From positions 1 to 64,000 of the IMG/VR virus record IMGVR_UViG_3300035188_001035: DNA of 64,000 nucleotides. The stretch is one strand, 5' to 3'. This document shows positions 25,931 to 50,966 of this stretch, one piece after another. This DNA is from a virus. Below the pieces are notes generated by a model. It made no database searches. It worked only from the letters and a program-made list of their open reading frames with translations, and was not told the DNA's origin. The position numbers and the translations under genes are program-made. How positions within the stretch are numbered: the stretch's first letter is position 1; every line of letters begins with the position of its first letter.

Positions 25931-26090
25931 AGTTGCGGTTGGAGAAAAATTTATTCACAATAATCAGGAGTATATTAAGACTCCAGAAATGAGGGTCAGT
26001 TGCTGCAAGATCAAAGATAACTGTCAGATTCTTACCACAGGACAAAAGGCAGTACTAAAACCGTTGGATGAAGTAGAAAAAGTACAATAA
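25917..26090 (+). CDS. 57-residue protein between polymerase halves
   Basis: Starts inside the last codons of the polymerase N-part, with AAGGAG six bases before the ATG. The sequence MKFHEVAVGEKFIHNNQEYI continues into CCKIKDNC and a basic C-terminus. The pattern (V-x-x-G-x-x-F, YxK) resembles small one-domain beta proteins common in phages, where they often read 'F...G..F...G..Y.K'. It may be unrelated to the polymerase, but its place between the halves raises the chance that it is a subunit or linker. Function unknown. Confidence 0.65.
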   Translation: MKFHEVAVGEKFIHNNQEYIKTPEMRVSCCKIKDNCQILTTGQKAVLKPLDEVEKVQ

Positions 26091-26092
26091 AT

Positions 26093-30520: not shown

Positions 30521-31623
30521 ATAATATACTATATATAGGACCATATAGAGAATTTACTGGAATAGGTAATGCATCTAGAAAATATATACAGGCTTTATGC
30601 GACGCTGGATTCAATATTGTCTGTCGCCCACTATTCAATACTATAAAACCTATTATAGAACAAGAATTAGAAGATATTATTATTCGTTGTGAAAAGAATA
30701 ATTTAGACAATTATGATACAATAATTCAACATGCATATCCACACCAGTTTTGTCATATCAATGGCTATAAAAATATAGGTATAGTTTCTTTAGATAAAAC
30801 TCATTATGGATACGATATTTATGAATATCTGAATATCGTGGATGAAATTTGGGTTGGTTCAACACACGCTAGAGAAGAACTTATTAATGGCAACATAGAT
30901 ATTGATAAAATAAAAGTTGTGCCAGAATTTATAGATTTATCAATTATAGATGATTATAAACAGAAAAATATAAAACAATCTAAAAAAAACAAGTTTATGT
31001 TTTATACCATATCAGATTTTACTAATAAAAAAAATCTACAAACTTTGATTCTAGCATTCTTTATTATTGCTATAGAATTTCCAGATACTGGACTACTGAT
31101 TAAAACTAAAAATACAAATAATGATAGTAGTAACTTAACATCTTTATTGACCTATGAAATAGATAAAATAATAGATTCATTACCTTTTAAGATCGATAAA
31201 AATATAACATACCCAACACTTATAGTAGGGGAAACTAAATATGATAATATACTATATATACATAATAATTGCGATTGTTATATAGATATATCGTCCGGAG
31301 AAAGTTTTGGATATCCAGTATTAGAGGCTATGTGTTTTAATAATCAGATTATAGTGAATAAGAATTCTGGTTCTTCAGATATAGTTAAGGGTACAAAATT
31401 CTATGGAGTAGAATCAACCCCTAAAAATGCTCACGATAATAGTCATCCATATTGGATATATAATTCTTTTCATCATAAATATTATGTTCCGGAACTTGAT
31501 AGTTTGGTTATGCAAATGAAGCGAGCTTTAAGTGAGTCTCTTTCAGAAAAGTCTGAGCGAATAGAATCACAAAACCATAAAGTCCTAAGCTATTCTATCA
31601 ATAATATTAAAGGGTTTATATGA
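30517..31623 (+). CDS. GT4-type glycosyltransferase
   Basis: A 368-residue GT-B enzyme. It opens MNNILYIGPYREFTGIGNASRKYI (acceptor domain) and has the nucleotide-sugar site at CDCYIDISSGESFGYPVLEAMCF (E(x7)E-like) and IIVNKNSGSSDIV. A FYTISDFTNKKNLQTLILAF segment is the usual start of the second Rossmann domain. It is linked by ATGA overlaps to both neighbours. With the preceding GT4 enzyme it probably builds an oligosaccharide. Acceptor unknown. Confidence 0.85.
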   Translation: MNNILYIGPYREFTGIGNASRKYIQALCDAGFNIVCRPLFNTIKPIIEQELEDIIIRCEKNNLDNYDTIIQHAYPHQFCHINGYKNIGIVSLDKTHYGYDIYEYLNIVDEIWVGSTHAREELINGNIDIDKIKVVPEFIDLSIIDDYKQKNIKQSKKNKFMFYTISDFTNKKNLQTLILAFFIIAIEFPDTGLLIKTKNTNNDSSNLTSLLTYEIDKIIDSLPFKIDKNITYPTLIVGETKYDNILYIHNNCDCYIDISSGESFGYPVLEAMCFNNQIIVNKNSGSSDIVKGTKFYGVESTPKNAHDNSHPYWIYNSFHHKYYVPELDSLVMQMKRALSESLSEKSERIESQNHKVLSYSINNIKGFI

Positions 31624-34988: not shown

Positions 34989-35318
34989 ATGAAACTAATC
35001 TATAAAGCTAATGAAAAACTACAATTTGAACTTGAAGCCGAAGGTCAAAAAGAAATATTCAAAGAACTTGCAGTAATCCAGGAAATATTTAGCGAAGATA
35101 AATGCGCATTATGCAACAAAGGTAATATTAAATTTGTTGTAAGAAATGTTGATGGTAATGATTATTATGAATTAAGATGTCAGGACTGTGGAGGCATTTT
35201 ATCTTTTGGTCAACATAAAAAGGGTGGAACATTATTTCCAAAACGCAAGGACGACAATAATGAATATTTGCCGAATAGGGGTTGGCATAAATGGAGCAAA
35301 GAATCTAAGGATAAATAA
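34989..35318 (+). CDS. zinc-ribbon protein
   Basis: A 109-residue protein. CALCNKGN near residue 39 and [17 protein letters not shown] near 67 form a two-CxxC ribbon; the final part [12 protein letters not shown] is aromatic. Similar small proteins occur near Rad52-like or ssDNA genes in phages, so a nucleic-acid link is reasonable. Its stop overlaps the ATG of the large virion protein by one base. Exact role unknown. Confidence 0.6.
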
Positions 35319-38300
35319 TGTCTCCTGTTTATGTATCGTGTGATGGTAGAATATCACTAACACAACACGGTGTAACAACAGATGAAAACTGTTGTGGCGG
35401 ATGCTGTTCATACATTTCCGCAAATATAGACTATGTAAAAAATGGTCTGCCAACTAGCCCACCATCGTACACTAATTGTATCCCTGATGGTCCATCAAAA
35501 CCAGTTGTTATAAACGAAAATCCACCAGCAGGTATTTGTGCGCTACATGGTCTTCCTGGAAGTGATGGTACTTTTTCGCCCGGTTGTGATTGTGATTTTG
35601 CAAATAGAACCGATTGTTGTGCTTTCTATTGCGATGTTTGCAATGGATCCGCAATTGGTTGTGATTTTCCTCCTGAGTGTTTCGCGGAATGGACACCTCA
35701 TGAGTATTGCTATTTGACCAATCCGGTATATCCAGAACAAATATATAATATGGAGCAATATGCATTAGCTTGGGCTCAAAATGCTGATTTTACAATTATT
35801 GACAGATTGAGTGGTGCTCTAAATGAATTAAAAACTTGTTTGGAAGATATGGGTTATCAAAACGTAACAGCCAATGCTGGTCTAAGTTATATGCCAGGAA
35901 CCGACGAACATGGTCATTTTGCTCCTATTGTCGTAGATAACCAGCCTTGGGTTCCTGTGGACGAAACTGGACATACACATAATGAATACTTTTCTCAACA
36001 AAGATTAGAAGAAGAATATGGATGGGTATTTTATAATGGATATAATCCTGGAGGATGTGTACCTGATGGAGAGTGTCATCCAGATATGCAAGCTGCTTGT
36101 GGTGGGCCGTGTGGCGGCAATGGTCCGTGTATAAGTCCGGTTATTGTAGACCCGATTAGTAATTTGACGTGTCCTCCTCTGATAGTTGATTATGATAACT
36201 GTACACAATATTGCGAAAAACAAGACTGTTGTGTGTCTTTAGAACCTATTAGGATAACAGGAAATCTTTCTGCTAGTTGTTGTGATAATTGTGGGCGTCT
36301 TGGTAAGGCCAAATGCTGTACAGCATCCAGCGTTATATTTTCTCAACAGGATTTGGAAACTTTGAGTATTGGTACATCGGCCGGTAGAGGAGGAAAATGT
36401 GGAATTAATGGATGTTCTCCGGCAGTATCAGGAATAAGTGAATGTGATACGTTAGGTAATGGAATTTTAAATATGTGGTTCGAACCACTATACGAAGGAT
36501 CAAATGAGTATAATCTTAAAATACTAGCCAGAGAATGTGCGGGATCAAATACTTGTGTAATTGGTCCATTAAGAGCTTATGAATCAGGATGGAATGAAAG
36601 TACACAAAATTATAATAAGCCTATAGATACTTGTGATTATTCTTTTGAAAATCAAGAAGCTTGTGAATGTGGCTATAGAGTTAAAAAATTATGTGTTTCT
36701 ACAATCCAAAGAACTTTTAAATTTAATCTTAATACTAGACACGTTGAGTCTGTTTTTGATGGATTTATAGCGATATATGCTCCCAATAATCCTAGATGGA
36801 TGGTTCCAGATCCTCCAACAACACCTTTTGAACAAGATCTTTATAATAGTATATATACAAATTATTGTGTTGATAAATATTTATGGCCTTCTTGTTTACC
36901 AGAGGATTATGGGATTGGAAATGATGGTTTTTATGTCAGAAAAAGATGCATAGAGAGTGGTCCGCGGCCGTACAATGAAGATGTTATTACTCCTGGCAAT
37001 TTCGTTTCTGAATCAGAATCAGTTGATCCATCCTATCCATTTGCAGGTTATGCTTTATGGCATTTTAGAAATGACTTGGTTCCTGGATGGGAATTATTTG
37101 AGGTAGACGGACCAGATTCTCCAAGAACACAAGGTCTTGCTAGTACACGATCTGCAATAATGAGAGAAACGGTATATGGTCCTCCAGACGAAAGTGCCGC
37201 AACAACAAAATATTACTATACTGCATTTACAAGAAGAGGACTTCCCGATTGGGTGGTATTTACTGTTGGACAAGTAACAAATACAGATTGGACATATGGA
37301 GGTTTAACTACTGCTTGGCCCCTGGGTTCTGCTATATCGAATCATTATGCTGCTATGTGGGGTACTGCACCGGTCTGTGATGATATTGATAATCAATTAC
37401 TGTTCGGTGATGGTGTTTGTGCTGGTAGATTTAAAGAATATTACTATCAATGGACAGTTTCAGAACAATTTCCTAATCAAGAATCGTCTTGCTCGCCAGT
37501 ACTAACAAAAGACAATGAAATGAAAAACTGGGGCTGTGGAGTAATGATAGGCGATGAGTTTATGCAAAATGGAGCTTGTGAAACAGGTATTCAAATTGTT
37601 GATTTTGCTAACGAACTCGAATGGTTGAATGTAATGAACAATTTTAGACCAGTTCCCCCATGGAATATTGAATTATTATTGGGTACTGATGCTGTGGAAT
37701 ATACTTGTGGATCAGAGTGGGGGGTATGGAATGATCCTGAGTGTGTAGTTGTATATGATGAGGAACCAACATGCGATCCTACTCCAACACCAGCACCAAC
37801 ATCAACAGAAACTCCAGTAGCATTTACTCCTACTCCGGGACCTACTGAACCATGTCCAACACCAGAACCTACTCGTCATTGTGAATCGTTATCTCATGAG
37901 TTTGATAGTAATCAATGTCCAACTCCGAGTCCATCAGCTACTCCAACACCAACACCAACTGAAACTCCTACTCCGACACCTACTCCCACTGAGACTCCTA
38001 CTCCAACGCCGTCGCCAACACCAAGTCCAACGCCATCGCCAACACCAAGTCCGACTCCAAGTCCTACTCCGAGTCCAACGCCGTCGCCAACACCGAGTCC
38101 GACTCCAAGTCCTACTCCGAGTCCAACGCCGTCGCCAACACCTAGCCCGACACCATCGCCAACACCGAGTCCAACGCCATCGCCAACACCAAGTCCGACT
38201 CCAAGTCCGACTCCAAGTCCGACTCCATCACCCACGCCAAGTCCTACTCCATCGCCAACACCAAGTCCGACTCCAAGTCCTACTCCGAGTCCAACGCCGT

Positions 38301-38506
38301 CGCCAACACCAAGTCCGACTCCAAGTCCTACTCCGAGTCCAACGCCGTCGCCAACACCTAGCCCGACACCATCGCCAACACCGAGTCCAACGCCATCGCC
38401 AACACCTAGCCCGACACCATCGCCAACACCGAGTCCAACACCAAGCCCAACGCCGTCGCCAACACCAAGCCCGACTCCGAGTCCAACGCCATCGCCCACT
38501 CCTTAA
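35318..38506 (+). CDS. large cysteine-rich protein with a (Ser-Pro-Thr-Pro)n mucin-like tail
   Basis: A 1062-residue protein. Residues 1-about 820 are Cys-rich and globular: [29 protein letters not shown], an [10 protein letters not shown] segment that recalls fibre proteins, and many disulfide- or metal-capable pairs. The remaining 240 residues start with [12 protein letters not shown] and turn into about forty near-perfect SPTP units. It has no signal peptide, so it is probably placed in the virion rather than secreted. Proline forces an extended chain, with Ser and Thr every second residue open for O-glycosylation. It sits one gene before the glycosyltransferases, and a second and third protein in the window share the tail. 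Family of the head is not recognised. Confidence 0.75.
37918..38503 (+). repeat. 12-base SPTP coding repeat tract, copy A
   Basis: Tandem 12-base units for Ser-Pro-Thr-Pro, about forty of them, using alternating synonyms (AGT/TCG/TCA for Ser; ACT/ACG/ACA for Thr; CCA/CCG/CCT for Pro). Higher-order blocks of five to eight units repeat almost word for word, so the tract looks recently expanded. It is GC-richer than the surroundings and nearly identical in blocks to copies B and C. Confidence 0.9.
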
Positions 38507-38528
38507 GTTATAATAAGAGAATAATATT

Positions 38529-39155
38529 ATGGAACCTATTAAAATTATCAATATAGAATGCGTAAGTAGTAATGCTCCGTGTTATACTATCACTATATCA
38601 GCTGCTAATTTTATTCCTGGATATTATATTGAGACTAGTTTAGACAATGGAGGAACATGGACAACACAACAATTATTAACATCTTCAATAACTACTACCG
38701 ATATATGTTTCGAAGAACCACTAGAATCTGCTGTCTTGATCAGATTAGCATATGTAGGATGTATGGAAACTATACCTCCAACGCCAACACCATCACCAAC
38801 ACCAACAGAAACTCCAACACCTACCCCGACACCTACTCCCACTGAGACTCCTACTCCAACGCCGTCACCAACACCGAGTCCGACACCTAGTCCAACGCCA
38901 AGTCCTACTCCATCGCCAACACCAAGTCCGACTCCAAGTCCGACTCCATCACCCACGCCAAGTCCGACTCCATCACCCACGCCAAGTCCTACTCCATCGC
39001 CAACACCAAGTCCGACTCCAAGTCCTACTCCGAGTCCAACGCCGTCGCCAACACCTAGCCCGACACCATCGCCAACTCCTAGTCCAACGCCGTCGCCAAC
39101 ACCGAGTCCAATGCCATCACCAACACCGAATCCGACGCCGTCACCAACCCCATAA
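38529..39155 (+). CDS. small protein with SPTP mucin-like tail
   Basis: A 208-residue protein. The N-terminal 80 residues form a compact beta domain ([40 protein letters not shown]), similar to a single Ig- or fibronectin-like virion domain. The remaining 125 residues are [13 protein letters not shown] and then about 23 SPTP units. There is no signal peptide. It has the same tail as the preceding large protein, so the tails probably share function or modification. Glycosyltransferases begin 40 bases downstream. Confidence 0.75.
38778..39152 (+). repeat. 12-base SPTP coding repeat tract, copy B
   Basis: About 23 SPTP units plus a TETP lead-in, in direct orientation to copy A and inverted relative to copy C. 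Two units near the end carry changes (MPSP, NPTP). Blocks of several units match copies A and C at base level. Confidence 0.85.
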
Positions 39156-39194
39156 TTACTATATCTCTATATAATCAAAGGACTTAAATTCATT

Positions 39195-40454
39195 ATGGAA
39201 ACAATATTTATTCAAATAGCATCATACAGGGATCCTGAATTAGTACCAACTATTAATGATCTGATAGATAAAGCAGCAAATCCTAACAATCTAAGATTCG
39301 GCATAGCGTGGCAAAATAATAAAAAAAATGATGCTTGGGATAATATAGATTTATTTAAAAATGATAAACGATTTAGAATTATAGATATAGATTATAAACA
39401 ATCTCAGGGAGTATGTTGGGCCAGAAATAAAGTACAACAGTTATATAATAATGAAAAGTATACACTACAAATAGATAGTCATCATAGGTTTATAAAAGAT
39501 TGGGACATTTTATTGATAGACATGGTCAAAAATTTGCAAAATGATGGTTATAACAAACCATTGATCACCACATACTTGCCTAGTTATAATCCAAAAAATG
39601 ACCCAAGTGATAGAGTTATGGTTCCTTGGAAAATGAATTTTGATAGATTCATACCAGAAGGGGCCGTTTTCTTTTTACCAGCACCATTTGACAATAATGA
39701 TGATATTACTAAACCTATACCATCCAGATTTTATAGCGCACACTTTGCGTTTACATTAGGTGATTTTGTTAAAGAAGTACAACACGACCCTAATTATTAT
39801 TTTCATGGTGAAGAAATAAGTATAGCAGTAAGAGCATTTACACACGGATATGATCTTTTTCATCCTAATATTGTTGTGGCTTGGCACGAATATACTAGAA
39901 AAGACAGAACCAAACAGTGGGATGATGATAAAACTTGGCATGTAAGAAACCAATTAAGCCATTTAAGAAATAGAAAATTATTTGGAATGGATAATGAAAA
40001 ACAAGATATTGATTTTGAAAAATATGGTTTTGGCAATATTAGAAGTTTAACAGATTATGAGAAGTATAGTGGGCTATCGTTTAAATCAAGATCCATTACA
40101 GATGATGTGATTTATCATAAAAATCCTAATTTGAATAATATAGATATTCCTGATAAAGATTTTCAAGAATCATTACAACACATTTTTAAATATTGTATAA
40201 ATTTACCATCAGATAAAATTAATGAAAATGATTATGATTTTTGGGTGGTTGCTTTTCATGATGCTGAAGATAGAACAGTATATAGAAAAGATAGTGATAA
40301 AGAAGAAATAAAAAATACAGTTTCTAACGGGCGACCGACCTTCTATAATATATGGAGAGAATTTCATGTTTCCGAAATGCCAAAAAAATGGGTGGTATGG
40401 CCGCACTCACTATCTAAAGGCTGGTGCGAAAAAATAGAAGGTTCAATAATATGA
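39195..40454 (+). CDS. GlcNAc-type glycosyltransferase (PF11397-like)
   Basis: A 419-residue enzyme. It opens METIFIQIASYRDPELVPTI and continues ANPNNLRFGIAWQN, then YTLQIDSHHRFIKDWD, the defining blocks of the GlcNAc-transferase family that acts on Skp1 hydroxyproline in eukaryotes. The DSH is the likely metal-binding DxH. Since eukaryotic relatives modify proline-rich protein sites, transfer to the Pro-rich SPTP tails is an attractive but unproven idea. The C-terminal 140 residues are an added domain. It is preceded by AAAGGA and overlaps the next by four bases. Confidence 0.8.
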   Translation: METIFIQIASYRDPELVPTINDLIDKAANPNNLRFGIAWQNNKKNDAWDNIDLFKNDKRFRIIDIDYKQSQGVCWARNKVQQLYNNEKYTLQIDSHHRFIKDWDILLIDMVKNLQNDGYNKPLITTYLPSYNPKNDPSDRVMVPWKMNFDRFIPEGAVFFLPAPFDNNDDITKPIPSRFYSAHFAFTLGDFVKEVQHDPNYYFHGEEISIAVRAFTHGYDLFHPNIVVAWHEYTRKDRTKQWDDDKTWHVRNQLSHLRNRKLFGMDNEKQDIDFEKYGFGNIRSLTDYEKYSGLSFKSRSITDDVIYHKNPNLNNIDIPDKDFQESLQHIFKYCINLPSDKINENDYDFWVVAFHDAEDRTVYRKDSDKEEIKNTVSNGRPTFYNIWREFHVSEMPKKWVVWPHSLSKGWCEKIEGSII

Positions 40455-41281
40455 AAAGGGCATTGGTTGGTTTTGTAACAAATATTACAGCTAATTATTC
40501 AAAAATAAAAATATGGACTAATAGCTTTAAAAAACATTGTAAAAATGATGCAATATATCTTATTGCAGCAAATGCATCAAATGAAGAAATAGACTTATTA
40601 ATAAAACTAGATATTAATATTCATAATATTATTATTGATGATAATGATTTACAATTTATCAACCATAAAAGACTTTACTATACATATGATCTTTTGTCTA
40701 AAATTGATATAGAATATATATTAGTTACTGATGTTTTTGATGTTATTTTTCAAAATGATCCATTTAAAAAATTAGACTTTAATAAATTTGATTTGTTTCT
40801 AACTTTAGAAGGAGTGTTGGTGAGTGAAGAACCTTGGAATTCTGATGTAATAAACAAAATTTTTCCAGAATACTATCAGTTATGTAGAAATCGAGATGTA
40901 ATTTGTAGCGGCATTATAGCAGGAAAACGAGACCATCTAATTAATTTATTATCTAGCATGTATAATTTGTGTGAAAACTGTTCAAATAATCATAATATAA
41001 AAGATCAGGCCGCACTTATAGTTTTGGATACTATCAAACGTATTGATGCACATATTAAATATCTATCATTAAAGGATGGTTGGGTCGTGAATTGTGCCGT
41101 TGCTGGGCCAACCAATTTTTTTGAATCTTGGGGATTTAAGAATACTATTGAAAAAAGATACCTAGATATACCAGTATTAAGAAATAATAATATATATATT
41201 GGTGATTTACAATATGATATAGTACATCAATTTAATCGTATTTCTGAATGGAATAAGGAGTTAATAAAAGATTATGAGTAA
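40451..41281 (+). CDS. GT-A-type glycosyltransferase-like protein
   Basis: A 276-residue protein from ATG 40451 (ATGA overlap). KRALVGFVTNITANYSKIKIW opens a Rossmann-like fold; YILVTDVFDVIFQNDPFKKL is a DxD-type metal site (Asp-Val-Phe-Asp) with the 'vvDayDvlf' look of GT-A enzymes that act in protein glycosylation. VICSGIIAGKRDHLINLLSS and IKDQAALIVLD follow as in that group. Acceptor unknown. Part of the coupled four-gene run on the + strand. Confidence 0.7.
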   Translation: MKRALVGFVTNITANYSKIKIWTNSFKKHCKNDAIYLIAANASNEEIDLLIKLDINIHNIIIDDNDLQFINHKRLYYTYDLLSKIDIEYILVTDVFDVIFQNDPFKKLDFNKFDLFLTLEGVLVSEEPWNSDVINKIFPEYYQLCRNRDVICSGIIAGKRDHLINLLSSMYNLCENCSNNHNIKDQAALIVLDTIKRIDAHIKYLSLKDGWVVNCAVAGPTNFFESWGFKNTIEKRYLDIPVLRNNNIYIGDLQYDIVHQFNRISEWNKELIKDYE

Positions 41282-42026
41282 TGCAATATGCATGTGTACA
41301 ACATCAGAGACATACTCCCAAAATTTAATAGATTGGAAAAAGAATTTTATTGATGAGAACACCTATTTGATTGTAGATAAAACTAAAAATAGTAATTTTA
41401 ATTCTAATGATTTTATATATACAGAATCTGATATTAGAAAAAATCTTAATTTTAATCATGATGTTAGCAAAAAGCACTACTGGAATAGCTATGGCAACAG
41501 AAATATTATCTGGTTTTATGCGCATTTTAGAATGATTAATTTCTATTTAACCCATAATGATTTTGACTATTATTGGTTTTTTGACGATGATGTATATATG
41601 GATAATTGGCAAAAATTTATTGATACTACAAATAATTATGATTATGATTTTATGTCATATTTTTGTTTTAAAAAGAATAATGTAAAATCTACAGAAAATA
41701 TACCATATATCGATCACAACACAACTTCTGGACAACTGTGGTTTGAAAGATTTCCTGGTCATAATGACATACTACCAAAAACAAATGAATATTTTGGGTC
41801 TTTTTTTCCAACGGTCAGGTACTCTAATAAAGCGATGAGAAAATTGATTGAAATTAATAGTTTAGGATATTTTGGTTATTCTGAGGGTTTTGTTCCAACA
41901 GTATTAAATATGTATAATTTTTCACTCAAATCTATTATCAATCCTGATAATTCATCAGATATGTTCGATATTAACGATATAAATATTTTACATAAAAATA
42001 TAAGGATTACATGGCAATGGATATAA
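41274..42026 (+). CDS. glycosyltransferase-like protein
   Basis: A 250-residue protein. FDYYWFFDDDVYMDNWQKFI carries an Asp-rich metal-binding site; further on TSGQLWFERFPGHND and GYFGYSEGFVPTVLN look like acceptor- and donor-site loops. The pattern resembles GT-A transferases that work on polysaccharides. It overlaps its neighbours by eight and sixteen bases. Assigned by motif and context. Confidence 0.65.
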   Translation: MSNAICMCTTSETYSQNLIDWKKNFIDENTYLIVDKTKNSNFNSNDFIYTESDIRKNLNFNHDVSKKHYWNSYGNRNIIWFYAHFRMINFYLTHNDFDYYWFFDDDVYMDNWQKFIDTTNNYDYDFMSYFCFKKNNVKSTENIPYIDHNTTSGQLWFERFPGHNDILPKTNEYFGSFFPTVRYSNKAMRKLIEINSLGYFGYSEGFVPTVLNMYNFSLKSIINPDNSSDMFDINDINILHKNIRITWQWI

Positions 42027-43387
42027 AAAAGCCAATATTAGTTACAGCTATTTATGATATAGGTAGAGATAATTGGGAATCATATAATCTATCATACAAC
42101 AATTATTTAGCATGGATGCGCAATACTCTCTCATTAGATAGTTATATTGTAATTTATACAGAACGGAAATTTTTGTCTAAAATAGAGGAAATGCGTAAGG
42201 AATTCGATCCTACACTAGATAAAACAGTTATTATAACAACACCAATTGAGGAGTTGGATGCGTATAAACTGTACTATACTAAACTTTGTGATTTAATGTT
42301 CAGTAAAGAATTCAAAGATAAAATACATACTAAAGTTCCAGAGATGACCAAACCCCTATATAATGTCATCATGTTCAATAAAATATTTTTTCTAAAAAAA
42401 GCTAAAGAATTTTTTAATGGAGATTTTTATATTTGGGTAGATGCTGGTGGTCTAAGAGAGAATATATCCAATTATAATAATCAAAGATGGCCATGTTTGA
42501 ATAAAATCAACGAACTAGATAACTCAAAAATAACATTTTTTAGCCATAGTCAAACTATAATGATTAGGAATCAAGATATCGAAAATCATGCGTTGTCTCA
42601 ACAAAGATACATACAAGGAACAGCTTTTTTGATTCCGGTAAATTTGATAGATGAATTATTAGATAATTTTAATCAAACTATTAATGAATCTCTGGAACAT
42701 CAATATATAGGAAGTGACGAAAAAATATTCGATATAACTTATTGCAAAAATAAAACCAAATATAGTTTAATTAAGTGTGATTGGAGGACTTACTTTAATA
42801 TATTCAAAGACGATGGACTAAAACTTTTCGATAAAGACGGAAATAGACCTTCAAAAATATTTCTAGATCTAGGATCTCATCAATTACAAGGATTAAAAAA
42901 ATATATTGATAAATTATATATAGATAATAGCTGGGAAATACATTGTTTTGAACCGAATTCTATGGTTAAAACAGAAGAGTTTATTGAAGCGATTAAAGAA
43001 TTGTCTATTCAATTTCATAAAAAAGCAGTATGGATAAGAAATGGAAGAACTATTTTTAATCAACACGGAGAAAAAGGAGAAGGGCAAGGTTCTTTATTGG
43101 AAGAAACTGAAGGTGGAAAAGCGTATGGAGATTTTTATGCAGAAGAGGTAGTGGACTGTGTTGATTTGCTAGACTTTATAAAAAAATTAGATCCTAAAAA
43201 AGATATTTATATCAAAATGGATATAGAATGGTCAGAATATAAAGTTCTTAATAAATTATTATCTGATTGGCCTAAAAATATCAAAAAGATATGGATTGAA
43301 TGGCATGGATCTAATAGCAATAAAGAGAATATAAAGACTCTAGAGGATGCTATTAAAAATTTAGGAACAGATCTAGAGGTAATTTAA
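42011..43387 (+). CDS. fusion of HtrL/YibB-like glycosyltransferase and FkbM-like methyltransferase
   Basis: A 458-residue two-domain protein. Residues 1-about 265: LVTAIYDIGRDNWESYNLSY, MTKPLYNVIMFNKIFFLKKA and FYIWVDAGG are typical of the HtrL/YibB family of sugar transferases. Residues about 275-458: IFLDLGSHQLQGLKKYI (SAM-binding motif), WEIHCFEPNS, VDCVDLLDFIKKL and IYIKMDIEWSEYKVLNKLL match FkbM methyltransferases, which commonly O-methylate sugars. A transfer followed by capping methylation in one chain is plausible. It ends the + strand run; its stop is five bases from the stop of the convergent gene. Confidence 0.75.
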   Translation: MAMDIKKPILVTAIYDIGRDNWESYNLSYNNYLAWMRNTLSLDSYIVIYTERKFLSKIEEMRKEFDPTLDKTVIITTPIEELDAYKLYYTKLCDLMFSKEFKDKIHTKVPEMTKPLYNVIMFNKIFFLKKAKEFFNGDFYIWVDAGGLRENISNYNNQRWPCLNKINELDNSKITFFSHSQTIMIRNQDIENHALSQQRYIQGTAFLIPVNLIDELLDNFNQTINESLEHQYIGSDEKIFDITYCKNKTKYSLIKCDWRTYFNIFKDDGLKLFDKDGNRPSKIFLDLGSHQLQGLKKYIDKLYIDNSWEIHCFEPNSMVKTEEFIEAIKELSIQFHKKAVWIRNGRTIFNQHGEKGEGQGSLLEETEGGKAYGDFYAEEVVDCVDLLDFIKKLDPKKDIYIKMDIEWSEYKVLNKLLSDWPKNIKKIWIEWHGSNSNKENIKTLEDAIKNLGTDLEVI

Positions 43388-43392
43388 TCAAT

Positions 43393-44103
43393 CTATTTTT
43401 GTGCATATTCTGATCTAGGATATCTTTTAGTATAGTGATCTATCTTTGAATGATGCATACAATACGGATTTGCAAAACCTTTATTTAAAGCGTTCAAAAG
43501 CCAAAACTCTCCAAAAATTCTAAATTCGATAGGCTGTAGTTGAGAATCTTTTCTTATATAACAACCATATACATCATTAAAACTTCTAATTTTTTTAATA
43601 TAAGAATTTGATGCCCACCAAAAATTACCAGAAAAATGTGGATGTTTATGACCGTCTTGTATAGACTGAAGATTAACTCCACAAGCATCATAATTTTTTA
43701 AATATTTTGTTGATTCGTCCCATAATTCTATCAAGAAATATTCCATTAAGTCTATCCAATCCTGTATATTATCTTTTTCATTTTCTTTTGAGTGTGCTCT
43801 CCACACTCCTTTACTATGTAAATATAAAATATTATCTTCGTCTGAAAATTCCTTACATTTATTCCATAAAAAATCTAATGTGTGTCCTTCCGTACTTTCA
43901 TTATTTGAATTAAATGATAGATGAATTTTATTATCGTCTTTTAGAAGTGAAATGATAGAATCATCAATATGTTTACCTATCATATTAATATATATTGTAT
44001 TAATAGAATCATAAAGTCCATAATTTTTAATTTTATGCATGGTTTTTTGGAATCTATCAAAGTAGTCATTTATACAAAACATATGATAAAAGATATAGTT
44101 CAT
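43393..44103 (-). CDS. glycosyltransferase-like protein, last gene of the minus-strand run
   Basis: A 236-residue protein with NYIFYHMFCINDYFDRFQKT at the start and ILYLHSKGVWRAHSKENEKD in the middle, the 'YLHxKG' motif of a group of glycan-related proteins near cell-surface polysaccharide loci. GNFWWASNSYIKKI and EFRIFGEFWLLN follow. No DxD of the usual form is obvious. A sugar-related role is likely from motif and neighbours. It ends convergently with the + strand fusion gene, with no terminator in the five-base gap. Confidence 0.65.
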   Translation of the reverse strand: MNYIFYHMFCINDYFDRFQKTMHKIKNYGLYDSINTIYINMIGKHIDDSIISLLKDDNKIHLSFNSNNESTEGHTLDFLWNKCKEFSDEDNILYLHSKGVWRAHSKENEKDNIQDWIDLMEYFLIELWDESTKYLKNYDACGVNLQSIQDGHKHPHFSGNFWWASNSYIKKIRSFNDVYGCYIRKDSQLQPIEFRIFGEFWLLNALNKGFANPYCMHHSKIDHYTKRYPRSEYAQK

Positions 44104-44112
44104 AATATAGTT

Positions 44113-44790
44113 TTAGTTTTTAAAAAAGTTGTACGCTAAATAATCTTCTATCTCATTCTGATTTCCTATATCGAAATGATGATCTCCTAATCTACCATCA
44201 TCGATTCTATTATATTTTTTAACTTGAAATTCTTCCCTAGTTTTAGAATAATAGTGATTTAATTGAGCAATATCTGTTGGTACATCTAGATAAGGACAAT
44301 TAGGGCGATGAACTTGCATACTAGGGGTGTTTTTATCGATTCTTACTATAGATTTTCCAATAATATCAGGATTAATACCTCTTTTTGTAAATCTTTGTAA
44401 AACACTATAATTATTATTTTCAACTTTATCCAAACCATTATTACCAAAATAAAACCATCTAAAACAAAACGCAGCATATTCTTTATAGTTTTTTAAAAAA
44501 TCTTTTATATTTTTATGATTTTTTAGAACTAAAAATTCATCAATATCAAAAAAAGCAGCATATTCATATTCTGATTTATAATCGTCAATAAATTTATTAT
44601 AACTATAAATTTGTCTATCTCCTCTATCTTCATCAAATTCTATTTTAATTAAATTAGGATGATTAAATTTTGTGCGCCAATTATTTTGATAAAGAAATAT
44701 ATTATCGAATCCTAATTTAATATGATATTCTACCCATTCTTGAATATAATAATCTTCATTTTTAGCTATACAAACACACGCTGTTTTCAT
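44113..44790 (-). CDS. GT2/GT92-type glycosyltransferase
   Basis: A 225-residue protein started at MKTACVCIAKNEDYYIQEWV (44790), because this is the family start; codons before it would run into the neighbour. LGFDNIFLYQNNW and YAAFFDIDEFLVLK (DxD site) are characteristic of the Glyco_tranf_2_4/GT92 group. HRPNCPYLDVPTDIAQLNHYYSK matches the late acceptor loop. It acts on a glycan or protein acceptor in the cytoplasm. Coupled to its neighbours on the minus strand. Confidence 0.8.
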   Translation of the reverse strand: MKTACVCIAKNEDYYIQEWVEYHIKLGFDNIFLYQNNWRTKFNHPNLIKIEFDEDRGDRQIYSYNKFIDDYKSEYEYAAFFDIDEFLVLKNHKNIKDFLKNYKEYAAFCFRWFYFGNNGLDKVENNNYSVLQRFTKRGINPDIIGKSIVRIDKNTPSMQVHRPNCPYLDVPTDIAQLNHYYSKTREEFQVKKYNRIDDGRLGDHHFDIGNQNEIEDYLAYNFFKN

Positions 44791-44792
44791 AT

Positions 44793-45449
44793 TTATTTGC
44801 ACCAGTTTGTTGATCTGTTTCCACTCATGTACGATTCGTACTCTCCAGGCATCAACTGATTTTTCCAATCTTTGTACCAAGGAAGATGTTTAGAAGTATA
44901 TGGTCCAGCTAATCTTATATATGGCCAATTAGTTGTATAGTTATTATTAATCAAACAAAAAGTGGTATCTATATCAGCCCAATACATTTCTATCTCTTCA
45001 TGTATGACCTTATTTTGCCAAAATTTACTTTCCCATTGTTTTATAGTTTGATTTTCATATTTAACATCTTCTCGCAGATTATCACCAGAAATATCTAAAG
45101 CAACCCCTACTTTTCTAATTTTATATTTTTCAGAAGTTTCATACATTATTTGTATTGTTTTTTTATCTACAGCATCAGATATTTCAATATCAGGATCTGT
45201 CAATAGGAAAATGGGTCCAACTATTTTTTTAATTGATTCTAATTCATACACCCTATGTCCATGATTCTCCGATAGTCTAATAATGTTTAGTTTAGAATTA
45301 TCCAAAAAATTTACCATTGGACCGTATGTACTATTATTATCAACAATGAATATATTATTAGTTATATTAATAAGTCTTTCACAAATTTTTTTAACATATG
45401 TATAATTATTATATGCTATAATTAAGCATGGTATGTTTTCTGTATTCAT
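44793..45449 (-). CDS. GT2-type glycosyltransferase
   Basis: A 218-residue GT-A enzyme. IPCLIIAYNNYTYVKKICER and NNIFIVDNNSTYGPM form the N-terminal nucleotide-binding fold, and IFLLTDPDIEISDA has the Asp-Pro-Asp (DxD) metal site. The C-terminal half includes IKQWESKFWQNKVIHEEIEM and WPYIRLAGPYTSKHLPWYKD, as in family 2 transferases with a late His loop. It overlaps the preceding DUF3431-like gene by four bases. Confidence 0.8.
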   Translation of the reverse strand: MNTENIPCLIIAYNNYTYVKKICERLINITNNIFIVDNNSTYGPMVNFLDNSKLNIIRLSENHGHRVYELESIKKIVGPIFLLTDPDIEISDAVDKKTIQIMYETSEKYKIRKVGVALDISGDNLREDVKYENQTIKQWESKFWQNKVIHEEIEMYWADIDTTFCLINNNYTTNWPYIRLAGPYTSKHLPWYKDWKNQLMPGEYESYMSGNRSTNWCK

Positions 45450-45997
45450 ATTAATTCTTCATTAAAATTTAGAATAGTTGGCCATAAATATTCTACCATA
45501 TAATTGGTCTCGTTTTTGACTTCATATGTAGGTAATAAGCTTTTGATTTTTTCATACTGATCAATATCTCTTTTTTTTATTAAATTTCTAGAAACAATAC
45601 ATTGAGCTGAATTAATAAACTTTATTGGTAATTTATAAGCAATATCGTGTTTTTTACATAAATTTATTGTTCTATCAAGAACTTCGCCACCTCTTTCGTA
45701 TACTCTTCCCAATGGTACAAATTCTTTATCGAAGTTAAAATTATTAACAATATTTAAAAAAGAGGCACAGTGGAAAAAAGGATTATCTTGACTAAAACAA
45801 ACATAATCTGGTAAATCATAATAATTATCTATTATATAACTTAAATAAGCTATAGTGTCAAAACCTACATTTGGTAAATCAATGTGGTATTTTCCATTAT
45901 TAATAGGATTTTTATTATAAACAATGTATTCATGTTTTAATTCATTTATCCATGTAAGATTTTGTTCATAATGACAGATGATAATTTTCATTTTCAT
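45446..45997 (-). CDS. DUF3431-like putative glycosyltransferase
   Basis: A 183-residue protein. IIICHYEQNLTWINELKHEY, IVYNKNP, LPNVGFDTIAYLSYIIDNYY and DYVCFSQDNPFFH follow the DUF3431 order (yKN, LPNxGxExxxYLxHIxxxY, FxQxxPFxH). This family is GT-A-like and found in polysaccharide loci. The next ATG downstream, 45991, is an alternative start. First gene of the minus-strand sugar run, 24 bases after the SPTP-tailed gene. Confidence 0.7.
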   Translation of the reverse strand: MKMKIIICHYEQNLTWINELKHEYIVYNKNPINNGKYHIDLPNVGFDTIAYLSYIIDNYYDLPDYVCFSQDNPFFHCASFLNIVNNFNFDKEFVPLGRVYERGGEVLDRTINLCKKHDIAYKLPIKFINSAQCIVSRNLIKKRDIDQYEKIKSLLPTYEVKNETNYMVEYLWPTILNFNEELI

Positions 45998-46021
45998 ATT
46001 ATTATACCTATATTGTGATGA

Positions 46022-47035
46022 TTATATAATAGGGGTCTCGGTTGGTGTCGGGCTTGGCGTTGGAGTCGGAGATGGTGTTGGGCTAGGCGTCGGACTCGGT
46101 GTTGGTGACGGCGTTGGACTTGGAGTCGGGCTTGGTGTTGGTGATGGCGTTGGACTTGGAGTCGGGCTTGGTGTTGGTGATGGCGTTGGACTTGGAGTCG
46201 GGCTTGGTGTTGGTGATGGCGTTGGACTTGGAGTCGGGCTTGGCGTTGGAGTCGGAGATGGTGTTGGGCTAGGCGTAGGACTCGGTGTCGGCGATGGCGT
46301 TGGACTTGGCGTTGGAGTCTCGGTCGGTGTTGGACTTGGAGTAGGACTCGGCGTCGGGCTAGGCATTGGAGACGGTGTTGGACAATTAAGGCTATTGAAA
46401 AACTCCATATTAGAATAACAAGCAATAGTTGGCGTTGGTGTAGGAGTAGGAGTTGGTGGAGGTAATGTTGGTGTACACGCAATTGTAACACAAGGAGTTG
46501 GTGTAGGATTATACAAATGACACGCAACATCTATCCAAATTAATCCACCTTTTTCGCAACAGTTAGATTCTTCTGAAAATCCTTCATACTGAGTATGACC
46601 GAGGAACTGAATAGTCCCGCAATACTGCGAATTATAATTTGGTATTTGTTCTATAGGCATACTAAAATATCTATAATTACAATCAGTATCTAGGGTTGGT
46701 GGCATAATAGCCCCGGAACATAAGCTTAGAGACTCCCAATACATTCCTCGGCCAGATCCATGCACCAAAACCTGAGGAACTCCCTCACTAAAATTTGGTA
46801 TTTGTTTTATATCGTGGTTGAAAAATCGTTGACAAGATTGTGCTCCACCAAGAGTTCCAGAACTACAAGCATCTTCTGTTTCACCATTAATACTCATCCA
46901 TCTTAAACCATCAGCAGTATCATAGGAATGAGTTAATATTTGCTCTTTATTAGCGTTGAATCCTGATAATTGTTCCATAGGTACATTGAAATACCTGTGA
47001 ATTCTACACCACTTTGGGTCTTGATATGCACACAT
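46022..47035 (-). CDS. protein with triplicated beta motif and SPTP mucin-like tail
   Basis: A 337-residue protein. The first 175 residues hold three copies of an approximately 55-residue unit with the pattern R(Y/F)F-x(3-4)-(I/M)xQ(L/I)xx(F/Y)N followed by a Q(I/V)L-x-H strand: [30 protein letters not shown] and [15 protein letters not shown]. The rest is Thr/Pro-rich, then roughly 28 SPTP units with TETP interruptions. No signal peptide is visible. It lies right before the minus-strand glycosyltransferases, mirroring the two tailed genes on the + strand. Probably a virion-surface protein. Confidence 0.75.
46025..46381 (-). repeat. 12-base SPTP coding repeat tract, copy C (inverted)
   Basis: Roughly 28 SPTP units on the minus strand, inverted relative to copies A and B. 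On the + strand it reads as GGTGTTGGxGATGGCGTTGGACTTGGAGT-like units. Multi-unit blocks match the + strand copies after reverse complementing. Copies B and C thus form inverted repeats around the whole sugar cassette (39.2-46.0 kb). Confidence 0.85.
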
Positions 47036-47054: not shown

Positions 47055-50000
47055 CTAAGGTGGTCCACCATCATCTAAACATTCTTCAGTAGTACTAAAA
47101 AGTGGTGGAGATCCTGTTCCTATAATCATATACGTTCCACCAGGACAATCACTAGCGCTTTCATCACCACCCAAACTTGAATCGCATATCAGATACATTG
47201 TTACCAAATCACCAGCTGCTGCTCCGTAACCCAAAGGATTTCTTACGTCATTTATTAACGTTGATCCCAATATACACTCTGAAGACATTGAATGATCAAC
47301 ATTAACTGATATTCCGGATGCGGTGTTAGAAGTAAAGTCATTATCTGCTGTACCAGTTACCAATAATGGTGCACTAGATACGTGCTCCATGATAATGTAT
47401 TCATTATTTTCATGAAGTTTGGCATATATTTTACTGCCTTTATAATAAGTCTTACCTAGATAGTCTTTAACATTAATAAAATTACAACCAGATCCAGCTA
47501 ATTTAGCTTCTCCACTGCACATAGGATCAATACGTTCTGTTAATTGAGCGATAACAATTTTATTAGAGTCTCCTCCTGCTACCCATACTCCTCTTTTTCT
47601 ATCAAACCTTAGATCTATAGGAGCAACTGGCCAAGTTCGTGGATTAGCGAGCCAATTATCCATAAATTTATCAGCTAATCCTGAGTTATTAAAAATGCCC
47701 TTTTCAGTATCTATTTGAATATCTGTAGAATTTGGTATAGGTTTACCATCAGTATCATAACCCCAAGCTTGTAAAACTAGTGGGCCTCTTAGAGCACAAA
47801 ATCCGAAATCATCATGATCGTCGTATCTGTCAGGATCGTGAGAAGATTTAATATCAGCAATATCTTCACCAAATGAAAGCATTAAAATATTAGTACTATC
47901 AGATTCTCCTCTAGAATCCCATTCTTCTAATAACTTCTTAGATAAAATAGGATTTAAATATTTTTGATTAATAGGTAAGCCTTTTGATCCACTATTCTTT
48001 TTATTTGTTGATGAATTTTCATCATCTTGATCCCAGCTTTGAAAATAAGGACTCAGTCTATATTTTCTGCCCTTGATCGATACTGGAGAAATTAAACCAT
48101 CTAATGACATTAATGCCATATTATATACGGCATCTCCTGTGACTGCACTTTCTACTTCTTTTAGAGTATTAAGTCCCATTTCATAATTTTTACGCGTTGT
48201 TGATGATGAACTATCTTCTTCCGAAGTATCTTCTTCTTCTTCTTCTTCTGGTTGTTGTTCTTCTTCGCATTGATCAAACGATGAATCACATATACCGTCT
48301 AAGTTTATAGCAATGCTTGGAGTGCATTCATTATTTGGAGTTGGTGTTGGTGTAGGAGTTGGTTCGTTATTTTCTTCGCCACCGCCTCCTCCATTATCTT
48401 CTTCTTCTAAGATAGCATCATAATATCCACCAATTAATAAGGACGATGGAGAAGCCGAAACATTTGGCGAAGCAACTCGACTTAAAATTTCTTGTATACC
48501 TAAATCTTTTAACCTTTGTGCGATAGCTTTTCTAGTTTCTGCCACCATAATAAGTGAATTTTTTCTTTGTGTTCTAATAATATCTAGTATTCTATTTCTT
48601 TCTTTATTTGCTTTCTGAACCTCATCAGACAAAGCCTTGGCGTATTGACCAAATTTTGCTGAGTATACCTGAAATGAATAATCTGAAGTAACACCGCCCT
48701 CATTATAATTTACATTAATACTCTTGATTGTAGCTATTGTATTACGAAAAACCCCTATACTGTAAGCTGGTGGTTCAGCAAGTGTTACACTACCGCTCTC
48801 TGTTTTATTGGTAAATCTAAGACCAGCATTGGACAAAGCTGTTCCCACAGTATTCATACCAGCATAATCACCATAGGCCCACGGACTCAAATCGGTTTTT
48901 ACAATTTCTGTTGAGCCTATTTGTCCTTGACTACCAACCCAAGGACCATAAACATAAATATTACTTTTCATAGGTATATTAACAGCATAATACATTGCTG
49001 CTGCATTTTCTAGTTTAAAAATATTGATAGCTGTTTTTCTAGTTGCTCCCTTAATTCCTTGTTGATGATTCGATATAAAATCTGTTACATTTTGTGCCAT
49101 ACCGAGCATAGCGGCTAAAGCTCTTAAACCTTGTGTTTTAATTCTATTATCCGCATTAACTGTTAGTCCTAAAAAGGGTGTTTGTATAACCACATCATTA
49201 GTATTGGTTTGAGGATTATTATAAACTTGTCCTGTGGTAGTTAATGATCCATAGATCATATTATTAGTTGGTTGATATACATAATTATTATCAGAAAAAT
49301 CTTTAGATATGATAAAGTCAATATCAAATGCCCCAATCCGTCTTTTTCTACTTCCGGCGGCTGAAATCATACCAAATCCATTAACTTTACCATCTTGAGT
49401 AATAAATAAAGAAGGATCAATTAATCCCATTCTATTAGCTGGTGTTCCGTATCCAGCCTCTACGGGAACATCTGATAATGATACTGAAGTATTATCTGAT
49501 GCCATACCACCGTATAAACCATATGGAGCATGAGCACATATTGTATTAACAGGCACAAGCCAGTATCTACCGTACCATGTTTTAATAAATTGTTGGAACC
49601 ATGCATATGCTCTTTCATATAAAACAACATTTACAGCAGCAGAGAACGCGGTGGATATCCCGGAGATATCGTCCATAGCTCTTGCGAAACCGTTCACATT
49701 TCCATTGTTAGCAAAACCTTGCAAAGCATTAAACGCATCTAAAACACGACGTAAATTGACTTGTCCCAATCCTAATAAATTAATAAGAGTTCCGGACAAG
49801 CTTTGTTTATTATTTTCATTACATATTATACCATATAATTTCCACATTTCCGAACTACCAGTAAAGAGTATTTCTTCTTCGGAAATGGTAAACATAGGAG
49901 GAAATCCATTAATAATAGCGGCTATAGGACTAGTATTAATAGGAACTGTAAAATTAATACCATCAACCTGTATAGGAAATCCTGTGAGATCGTATCCTAA

Positions 50001-50966
50001 CATCATCCGAGCTTTTGTTTCTGTAACAACATTGGCTAAATAATGAACTTGTTCACCAATAACAAATTTATTACTATTCGCATAAATTTCTTCGAATCCG
50101 CGTTCTCCCTTTGTGCAAATACCAGAGGAGAATCCAGCAGATATAATATCTTTTATTGGATTATCATTTGTTGGTATAATAGTTCTATCTATTAGATTAA
50201 TAAATATAGTATATCTTTGGAGTGTAACATAAAAATCACAACCACAAGCATCACATGCCTCACTAATTAAATTTAATAAATTACTTTCAGAATTAGATGT
50301 TCTAGCATATGGTGCTCTAAATAATAATGTATTAATCAACAATTGAAAGTTTAACGATAATCTATATTGTCCATTAGTTGTCACTATACCAGTATTATAT
50401 TGTTGTATAGCGCGTAAAGCATCAACTAGATAAACCTGGTTATCACCAGATGATCTTCCCCAATTGTTACAATTATTAACTCGTGGCCAATTGTGGGTAT
50501 CTTCTCCCGGAGGACACAGTGCAACATCTTTGTGCATCCAAGCGCAAACATTCATAAAGTTATAATTATCTAATGATGGTACTGGACAATAATATCCTTT
50601 TAATAAAACAGATACATACTCTAACATTTTTCTAGGATCAATAACTTGTACCTTATATCTTAATCCATTACTACTTAAACTTTCTGTAGCTGATGTTAGT
50701 ATTCCACCAAAAGATAATCCAGGAGTAGAAGATCCTTGATTAGCATAAACATTAAATAAAACTGGTGTTCCTACTTCTGCTATTTGACCCGCTCCTTGAC
50801 CAGCACAAGGATCAACAACCAATTCCATATCCAAAGTTGATGATGCCGCACCTATGCCTAATACTAGACTAAAATTACTTAGCCATAAATTACTGGATAC
50901 AACTTGTCCACCAGATGGTGTTGTAAATGTAAATAGGGCGCTCCTAGAATCACATTTCGTTGGCAT
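47055..50966 (-). CDS. large virion/tail-associated protein
   Basis: A 1303-residue protein. The N-terminal 100 residues (SALFTFTTPSGGQVVSSNLW, GTPVLFNVYANQG, YKVQVIDPRKMLEYVSV) resemble the strands of a phage tail hub or baseplate domain. The middle is mixed alpha/beta with Asn/Tyr-rich stretches; residues about 850-915 are a low-complexity hinge (PTPTPTP then EEEEEEDTSEEDSSSS). The C-terminal 350 residues form another domain that ends in DDGGPP. Cysteines are frequent, as in the SPTP-tailed proteins. Its place in a tail operon supports a tail or baseplate role; no enzyme motif is visible. Confidence 0.65.
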   Translation of the reverse strand: MPTKCDSRSALFTFTTPSGGQVVSSNLWLSNFSLVLGIGAASSTLDMELVVDPCAGQGAGQIAEVGTPVLFNVYANQGSSTPGLSFGGILTSATESLSSNGLRYKVQVIDPRKMLEYVSVLLKGYYCPVPSLDNYNFMNVCAWMHKDVALCPPGEDTHNWPRVNNCNNWGRSSGDNQVYLVDALRAIQQYNTGIVTTNGQYRLSLNFQLLINTLLFRAPYARTSNSESNLLNLISEACDACGCDFYVTLQRYTIFINLIDRTIIPTNDNPIKDIISAGFSSGICTKGERGFEEIYANSNKFVIGEQVHYLANVVTETKARMMLGYDLTGFPIQVDGINFTVPINTSPIAAIINGFPPMFTISEEEILFTGSSEMWKLYGIICNENNKQSLSGTLINLLGLGQVNLRRVLDAFNALQGFANNGNVNGFARAMDDISGISTAFSAAVNVVLYERAYAWFQQFIKTWYGRYWLVPVNTICAHAPYGLYGGMASDNTSVSLSDVPVEAGYGTPANRMGLIDPSLFITQDGKVNGFGMISAAGSRKRRIGAFDIDFIISKDFSDNNYVYQPTNNMIYGSLTTTGQVYNNPQTNTNDVVIQTPFLGLTVNADNRIKTQGLRALAAMLGMAQNVTDFISNHQQGIKGATRKTAINIFKLENAAAMYYAVNIPMKSNIYVYGPWVGSQGQIGSTEIVKTDLSPWAYGDYAGMNTVGTALSNAGLRFTNKTESGSVTLAEPPAYSIGVFRNTIATIKSINVNYNEGGVTSDYSFQVYSAKFGQYAKALSDEVQKANKERNRILDIIRTQRKNSLIMVAETRKAIAQRLKDLGIQEILSRVASPNVSASPSSLLIGGYYDAILEEEDNGGGGGEENNEPTPTPTPTPNNECTPSIAINLDGICDSSFDQCEEEQQPEEEEEEDTSEEDSSSSTTRKNYEMGLNTLKEVESAVTGDAVYNMALMSLDGLISPVSIKGRKYRLSPYFQSWDQDDENSSTNKKNSGSKGLPINQKYLNPILSKKLLEEWDSRGESDSTNILMLSFGEDIADIKSSHDPDRYDDHDDFGFCALRGPLVLQAWGYDTDGKPIPNSTDIQIDTEKGIFNNSGLADKFMDNWLANPRTWPVAPIDLRFDRKRGVWVAGGDSNKIVIAQLTERIDPMCSGEAKLAGSGCNFINVKDYLGKTYYKGSKIYAKLHENNEYIIMEHVSSAPLLVTGTADNDFTSNTASGISVNVDHSMSSECILGSTLINDVRNPLGYGAAAGDLVTMYLICDSSLGGDESASDCPGGTYMIIGTGSPPLFSTTEECLDDGGPP

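Follow-up and report, generated by a model that had tools for sequence, protein, structure and literature searches.

We analysed a window of 64,000 nucleotides (bases 1-64000 of the viral record IMGVR_UViG_3300035188_001035, which comprises 92,962 bp) and centred on the block at 35318-47035, where genes for three proteins with long Ser/Thr-Pro tails stand next to two runs of putative glycosyltransferase (GT) genes, a candidate system for the glycosylation of the phage's own proteins.

Organization of the locus

On the + strand, the last genes of the replication-side operon encode two tailed proteins of 1062 amino acids (aa) (35318..38506) and 208 aa (38529..39155), after which come the four genes of an enzyme run (39195-43387): a GT60-type transferase, two proteins that carry acidic motifs of the GT-A type, and a fusion of an HtrL_YibB domain with an FkbM methyltransferase. 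On the - strand, the late operon proceeds from the terminase (L002) through the tape measure gene (59693-63412) to the third tailed protein, of 337 aa (46022..47035), whose gene is the last ahead of the second enzyme run (43393-45997), formed by a DUF3431 protein, a GT2, a GT92 and one unknown protein. The two runs are convergent and separated by a gap of 5 bp, and transferase genes adjoin structural genes, the - run lying directly after the late operon that bears the tape measure. This mirror layout, each tailed block being followed by four genes, had already been described in a sequence-only reading of the same DNA and was confirmed here.

The Ser/Thr-Pro tails

The three tailed open reading frames (ORFs) and their SPTP repeats were likewise found as described. 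The Pro/Ser/Thr-rich (P/S/T) tails begin at residues 821, 73 and 211 of the 1062-, 208- and 337-aa proteins, extend over 242, 136 and 127 residues, and contain 41, 23 and 24 SPTP units, respectively; the previous counts of about 40, 23 and 28 agree for the first two proteins and were too high for the third. Nearly half of the tail residues are proline. The longest alternating [S/T]P runs comprise 170, 88 and 92 residues, while 1000 residue shuffles of each tailed protein gave runs of only 8, 12 and 8, and no run of at least 8 units arose in 200 shuffles of 59 ORFs of the window. Since shuffled proteins give only short [S/T]P runs, the three tails cannot be a product of chance. Between successive repeats, the third codon position differed in 105 of 160, 64 of 92 and 83 of 108 codons of the 1062-, 208- and 337-aa proteins, the corresponding numbers for positions 1 and 2 being 28 and 28, 18 and 20, and 18 and 22. 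Silent positions thus change between repeats that keep the same residues, an indication of selection on the peptide; the conservation of the repeats looks like a constraint on the protein and not like fresh DNA slippage.

The tailed proteins matched no PHROG family, and when the N-terminal portions of the 1062- and 337-aa proteins were used for pattern scans, these returned the same phage only, or nothing. The 1062-aa protein has a Cys-rich N-terminal head (MSPxY...CC), and a head family with the approximate pattern MSPxY..GKLLI..G.LA...CCCGC was recognised at the same genomic site in six relatives (L386, L397, L404, L368, L343 and L409), in which about 30 N-terminal residues are conserved before the sequences diverge. 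The 337-aa protein carries three copies, identified by eye, of a YF..PIEQIP...W-like motif; also by eye, its head is similar to an untailed protein of 107 aa in L343 (L343:13678-14001), which is followed by a separate 557-aa P/S/T protein. In relatives, the mucin-like region is either a separate late protein of 228 to 557 aa (L341, L343, L344, L397) or a linker inside a late protein of 885 to 917 aa (L341, L344, L442), and in the window phage it sits at the ends of three proteins. This varying placement, together with the divergence of the 1062-aa heads, fits the idea that sugar-bearing tracts may evolve fast and be exchanged between proteins, a kind of acceptor shuffling. Downstream of the tape measure, a 1303-aa late protein of the - strand (47055..50966) has a short PTPTPTPTP linker, and its counterparts in relatives carry longer P/S/T linkers.

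Elsewhere in the window, a 51-bp tandem repeat at 7494-7893 (7.9 copies) encodes GDATFNDNSYN-like units, and the C-terminal repeat GDATFNDNSSN of the 557-aa P/S/T-rich protein mentioned above (L343:11995-13668) resembles its product by eye. The likeness, as judged by eye, links P/S/T tracts to a virion-like repeat domain.

The GT60 enzyme and its predicted fold

Pfam analysis, which covered 20 proteins of the window, assigned the first enzyme of the + run (39195..40454) to PF11397 with 259.7 bits (curated cut-off 21; E 6.9e-77), bearing out its earlier assignment to a family of N-acetylglucosamine (GlcNAc) transferases. PF11397 is a family that we take to be GT60 of CAZy, consistent with its description in papers. 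Residues D94-S95-H96 (DSH, that is, a DxH motif), GEE at 205-207 and H231 were invariant in an alignment of 27 phage sequences. A sequence search of solved structures gave no match for this enzyme. Its AlphaFold model had a predicted local distance difference test score (pLDDT) of 91.1, and in a structural comparison the first 29 matches were all polypeptide N-acetylgalactosaminyltransferases (ppGalNAc-Ts, family GT27), with Z 19.5-23.2 and a root mean square deviation of 3.2-3.9 over 263-283 residues; the next family came after them at Z 16.8. In the predicted model, the fold is therefore closest to that of the mucin-type polypeptide GalNAc-transferases, although these belong to a different family, share 10-14% identity in the structural alignment and barely cover the C-terminal part of the phage enzyme.

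This likeness agrees with what is described for GT60. The parts of the literature that we consulted report that GT60 and GT27 share the DxH motif, present in GT60 instead of DxD, and the O-glycosylation of polypeptide Ser/Thr (PMC7185993), that a GT60 enzyme initiates mucin-type glycosylation in Dictyostelium (PMC3188802), that the T. cruzi enzyme forms GlcNAc-alpha-Thr on mucin-like molecules (PMC9472816), and that Gnt1, another GT60 member, modifies a hydroxyproline of Skp1 (PMC6939170). The protist alpha-GlcNAc-transferases (T. cruzi TcOGNT, the Dictyostelium mucin-type and the Skp1 enzymes) thus share with the phage protein the PF11397 family, the DxH motif and, as proposed here, the start of O-glycosylation on Pro/Thr/Ser-rich repeats. 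In contrast to them, the window enzyme is encoded by a phage, is presumably cytosolic and shares an operon with its presumed acceptors; a prolyl hydroxylase, searched for as PF13640 only, was not found.

The sequence-only reading had pointed to the hydroxyproline site of the eukaryotic members. Modification of tail hydroxyproline would be in keeping with the common CAZy family of Skp1 Gnt1 (PMC6939170, consulted in part) and with the proline content of the tails, but the PF13640 oxygenase was absent from the 92,962-bp record, in a search that did not extend to other oxygenase families or to host enzymes, and a characterised GT60 acts on Thr in the portion of PMC9472816 available to us. We regard this route as very improbable. 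In a relative (L016:135-770), the gene directly upstream of GT60 appeared by eye to be 2-oxoglutarate-oxygenase-like, a possible prolyl hydroxylase; Pfam gave no match for it.

Association of GT60 with P/S/T-rich proteins in phages

A scan with the GT60 protein retrieved 170 viral relatives, of which 80 loci were kept, two of them being the window phage itself. Because relatives had at the same site mucin-like proteins with irregular TPTx repeats, we used a composition-based definition of P/S/T-rich regions: 40-residue windows with P of at least 15%, S+T of at least 30% and a sum of at least 65%, or with S+T of at least 60%. By this definition, 71 of the 80 GT60 loci contained P/S/T- or S/T-rich genes (183 of 1325 genes), as did 3 of 80 loci chosen by the large terminase subunit (TerL) and none of 80 random viral loci (0/860 genes), which were about half as long. 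The same irregular repeats led us to drop the conclusion that a strict repeat search refutes co-occurrence; the predicted co-occurrence of tails and transferases in related phages was thus found with the relaxed definition and largely failed with the strict pattern, as detailed below.

The association extended to gene order. Among 94 GT60 loci (the 80 relatives plus 14 regions from records of the same-site comparison described below), the directly upstream same-strand gene was P/S/T- or S/T-rich in 63, against 8.9 expected for random genes of those loci. After merging GT60s with at least 90% identity the numbers were 9 of 33 (1.6 expected), and with at least 75% identity 4 of 14 (0.2 expected).

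A reverse comparison, independent of the relaxed definition, started from contigs chosen solely for a P-[S/T]-P-T run. PF11397 was present in 11 of 50 such contigs and in none of 50 random ones (p 0.0005; 2.40 and 2.11 Mb in total, respectively), and the search of the random contigs gave no match in its 14 control genomes either. For the generic GT2 domain PF00535 the figures were 13/50 and 5/50 (p 0.07). The run contigs were drawn from the 75 run loci whose run is in frame (the other 5 of 80 lacked such a run), the random set from 80 loci and a set of 50 TerL relatives from 80 records; each set of 50 was hand-picked as roughly the longest, so that a few slightly longer contigs were missed. 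The P-[S/T]-P-T runs found elsewhere were mostly internal linkers. Runs ending at the stop codon occurred at 22 loci, two of which are the window phage, with L211 (a tail of 117 residues) and L208 (76 residues, possibly in a spurious frame) among the others; at one locus with a Pro/Thr (PT) tail (L215), a GT2-looking gene lies four genes on.

For a comparison at one and the same genomic site, a conserved 109-aa gene just ahead of the 1062-aa gene was used as an anchor, which gave 80 syntenic loci. In most of them the late operon comes directly next and there is no cassette. Among the 71 loci with at least 5 kb downstream, a P/S/T-rich gene was present in 8 of 8 with GT60 (two being the window phage) and in 7 of 63 without it; after dereplication, in 6/6 and 6/41. 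Left out of this count were L415, whose anchor was not recognised, L351 and L390, cut just after the anchor, and the loci with less than 5 kb downstream. Upstream of the anchor, no P/S/T gene was found in 79 loci. Of the 80 anchor records, 50 were selected by hand to represent the groups, and a search over the whole of each detected GT60 in 17. One syntenic relative without GT60 (L350:15070-16653) encodes a poly-Ser/Thr protein with 280 S/T-rich residues; a gene close by has a methyltransferase match that is weak and below the cut-off.

These comparisons bear on the explanation that the tails are unmodified, stiff and extended (polyproline-like) spacers, and that the transferases are adjacent merely as accessory genes at operon ends. 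It would account for the prevalence of internal linkers among runs elsewhere, for tails that occur without GT60 and for the lack of a cassette in most syntenic relatives, and the point at which both operons end and converge is a natural insertion site. Against it, P/S/T-rich genes accompany GT60 at the same site as counted above, GT60 is tied to P/S/T runs more strongly than GT2 is, and the upstream side of the anchor is free of P/S/T genes in spite of a GT4-type gene there in L341, L343 and L344 (read gene by gene, by eye). The pairing also recurs in two bacterial loci. We therefore consider unmodified spacers unlikely, while giving them more weight than any other alternative.

The observations instead lead us to think that the block is probably a cassette by which the phage itself encodes the mucin-type O-glycosylation of its own Pro/Ser/Thr-rich proteins, because GT60 is linked to P/S/T-rich genes across phages and in two bacterial loci, and because the lead enzyme has the predicted fold of a mucin-type polypeptide transferase. 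The same linkage and predicted fold support the earlier proposal that the targets of the transferases are P/S/T regions of the phage itself.

Several findings weigh against such a cassette. The P/S/T definition was set after inspecting relatives with irregular TPTx repeats, and just 5 of 80 loci, including two that are the window phage, had a strict long P-[S/T] run near GT60. No P/S/T- or S/T-rich gene lay within 10 kb in 14 of the 94 GT60 loci, two of which are cut just upstream of GT60; a wider look at five such records revealed P/S/T genes elsewhere in two, a Ser/Pro-rich gene in one and none by our rule in two, one of which has an S/T-rich gene. GT60s away from the anchor had a P/S/T-rich gene in 6 of 11 regions, in no case directly upstream. 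The 7 of 63 syntenic loci with a P/S/T-rich gene and no GT60 point in the same direction, as do the 39 of 50 run-bearing contigs without GT60, which may be fragments, and short C-terminal PT tails that have, by eye, no evident transferase directly downstream. Of the 50 TerL relatives, 4 had GT60 and 1 had strict-pattern tails, with no relative having both. The expectation of the sequence-only reading that tails would not regularly stand apart from transferases was accordingly borne out only in part. In a tree of 77 anchor loci, the GT60 loci fell into about three lineages of a single clade, with GT60-free loci between them, and for this reason the Fisher p-values overstate independence. As for the enzymes, Foldseek TM-scores of the GT60 model against GalNAc-Ts were moderate (about 0.42-0.50 by query), and the proteins at 40424, 41274 and 43393 had no Pfam match.

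One TerL relative (79%) without a PF11397 match, L340 (G036:1-20000), encodes four PT-rich proteins; one, of 823 aa, is located close to the terminase, and another has TTTASP repeats.

The remaining genes of the enzyme runs

Evidence from Pfam, PHROG or motifs supports most of the eight genes previously taken as transferase-like, and not all of them: the protein at 43393 has no match, and the HtrL_YibB and DUF3431 families have not been assigned a function. The + strand protein at 40424..41281, whose likely start is the ATG at 40451, overlapping the GT60 stop, matched the glycosyltransferase family phrog_1579 (E 1e-4) and has a GT-A-like TDVFDVxFQ motif, of which TDVFD is conserved in an alignment of 8 sequences; its homologue in L006 showed a weak, below-cut-off match to GT_PLOD. 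The next protein (41274..42026, +) is GT-A-like by its motif WFFDDDV, and FDDD is conserved in its family, also in an 8-sequence alignment. In a sequence search of solved structures, antibodies and ferritins were the sole matches of these two proteins (E 0.15 to 0.81) and were judged to be due to chance.

The last gene of the + run (42011..43387) encodes the fusion noted earlier of a transferase with an FkbM methyltransferase. Pfam recognised both parts, HtrL_YibB (PF09612) over residues 9-266 with 69.8 bits (E 3.8e-19, above the cut-off), and residues 1-265 are predicted to adopt a GT-A fold, with LARGE1 as the best match (Z 13.5), followed by a capsid transferase of chlorovirus PBCV-1 (2p72, Z 11.9). 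Since many GT-A enzymes score 10.5-11.6, the PBCV-1 match indicates the fold only. This comparison concerns the HtrL_YibB half, the FkbM half being poorly modelled; a sequence search of solved structures gave no match for HtrL_YibB. GT60 is accompanied by an HtrL_YibB homologue in 86 of the 94 loci, and the number remains 86 when the HtrL domain alone is counted and FkbM-only matches are excluded.

On the - strand, the run comprises a DUF3431 protein (45446..45997; PF11913, E 1.9e-14), a GT2 glycosyltransferase (44793..45449; PF00535, E 4.8e-6), a GT92/Glyco_tranf_2_4 (GT2-like) protein identified by Pfam (44113..44880) and a 236-aa protein with no Pfam or PHROG match (43393..44103). As the probable start of the 44113 gene, read from the sequence, is the ATG at 44790, it would not overlap the 44793 gene. 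In L006 and L041, a DUF3431 homologue directly follows GT60 and precedes 40424-like, 41274-like and HtrL_YibB genes; that is, these clusters correspond to the + run of the window plus the DUF3431 gene, located on the other strand in the window, and their flanking genes are unlike those of the window phage.

The generic nature of the GT2, GT4 and GT25 members would also suit a cassette that alters the host surface (lipopolysaccharide, capsule or S-layer), blocking superinfection or changing phage binding, with the tails as bystanders, and serotype-changing phage transferases are known (PMC12619734, consulted in part). This appears improbable to us, as no polymerase or flippase family was found among the 20 Pfam-scanned proteins, which are only a part of those of the window, and the lead enzyme has the predicted fold of a polypeptide transferase, with relatives that act on polypeptides. 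We give hardly any credence to the glycosylation of hypermodified DNA bases: viral DNA-hypermodifying transferases do exist, judging from a title cited in PMC12619734, but PF00303 (thymidylate synthase/hydroxymethylase) was not found in the record, which may be incomplete, and GT60 is a family of polypeptide transferases.

Two further GT4 genes lie at 28916-31623. At 24053-28382, a DNA polymerase III alpha-like gene is apparently split (625 + 534 aa) around a 232-aa exonuclease-like ORF, the names being taken from reading the translations.

Bacterial loci and cultured phages

Twelve loci with GT60 from a genome collection were compared. In Jiulongibacter sediminis JN14-9 (L452) and in a Saprospiraceae metagenome-assembled genome (MAG; L449), GT60 starts 235 and 330 bp, respectively, from the divergent gene of a P/S/T-rich protein. 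In a Gemmatimonas MAG (L456), the gene before GT60 has 40 P/S/T residues, and L455 and L458, which resemble phage contigs, have P/S/T genes nearby; no P/S/T gene was seen in the remaining seven loci, some of which are truncated.

Among phages, ORF334 of the Xanthomonas phage XacN1 is a GT60 enzyme 45% identical to that of the window, and 13 P/S/T-rich ORFs were counted in five 20-kb regions of its genome; as these regions were chosen at repeat-pattern matches or near GT60, this density is not an unbiased estimate. At least two glycoproteins of XacN1 were detected by proteomic analysis (PMC5852040), and the text available to us does not tie them to ORF334 or to the P/S/T proteins. XacN1 is itself a jumbo myovirus of 384 kb. 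In RAS14, which has a related GT60, a P/S/T-rich ORF lies within 10 kb.

Other viruses glycosylate their own proteins. Mycobacteriophage virion proteins carry glycans (Freeman et al. 2023, as described in the accessible part of PMC12619734), at the C-termini of capsid and tail-tube subunits, whereas the window phage has a GT60 as its lead enzyme, and long mucin-like tails on other proteins are presumed to be the acceptors. The chlorovirus PBCV-1 encodes the glycosylation of its own capsid protein (PMC5852040, consulted in part); unlike the window phage, it is an algal virus with different enzyme families and a different acceptor.

Proposed mechanism and significance

We propose that the GT60 enzyme (39195-40454) would act as an initiating polypeptide O-glycosyltransferase, attaching the first sugar to Thr/Ser of the SPTP tails in the three neighbouring proteins, with a cytosolic UDP-sugar as donor, in the simplest case UDP-GlcNAc. 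The sugar may then be lengthened by some of the remaining GT-A-type enzymes (40424, 41274, HtrL_YibB, GT2, GT92) and capped by the FkbM methyltransferase fused to HtrL_YibB. At least the 337-aa protein, whose gene closes the non-enzyme part of the late operon, would bring the glycan into the virion. Catalysis, the choice of acceptor, the sugar and the location in the virion are all inferred in this scheme; the benefit, which could lie in protecting extended stalks, in adhesion to the host or in masking, is speculative.

The cassette would add a new form to phage virion glycosylation and, if borne out, to mucin-type O-glycosylation outside eukaryotes. A search of the open literature, which mostly does not cover subscription papers, revealed no publication that deals with GT60/PF11397 in phages or with mucin-type glycosylation by them. 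On a broader view, to which we give about even chances, mucin-type protein O-glycosylation is not peculiar to eukaryotes: phages and some bacteria would carry a mobile, operon-encoded version, consisting of GT60, usually HtrL_YibB and often a methyltransferase, which travels with a fast-evolving P/S/T acceptor and produces a mucin-like coat on virions and cells, and from which eukaryotic GT60 may descend.

If this holds true, the Ser/Thr-Pro low-complexity stretches of many environmental phages would be, beyond linkers, dedicated sugar-attachment tracts with their own enzymes. This would help to predict which phages have glycosylated virions, would suggest roles for orphan phage transferases, and would provide short peptide substrates, together with the enzymes that fit them, for the bacterial production of mucin-like polymers. 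Furthermore, mucin-type O-glycosylation would then have its place among prokaryotes and their viruses.

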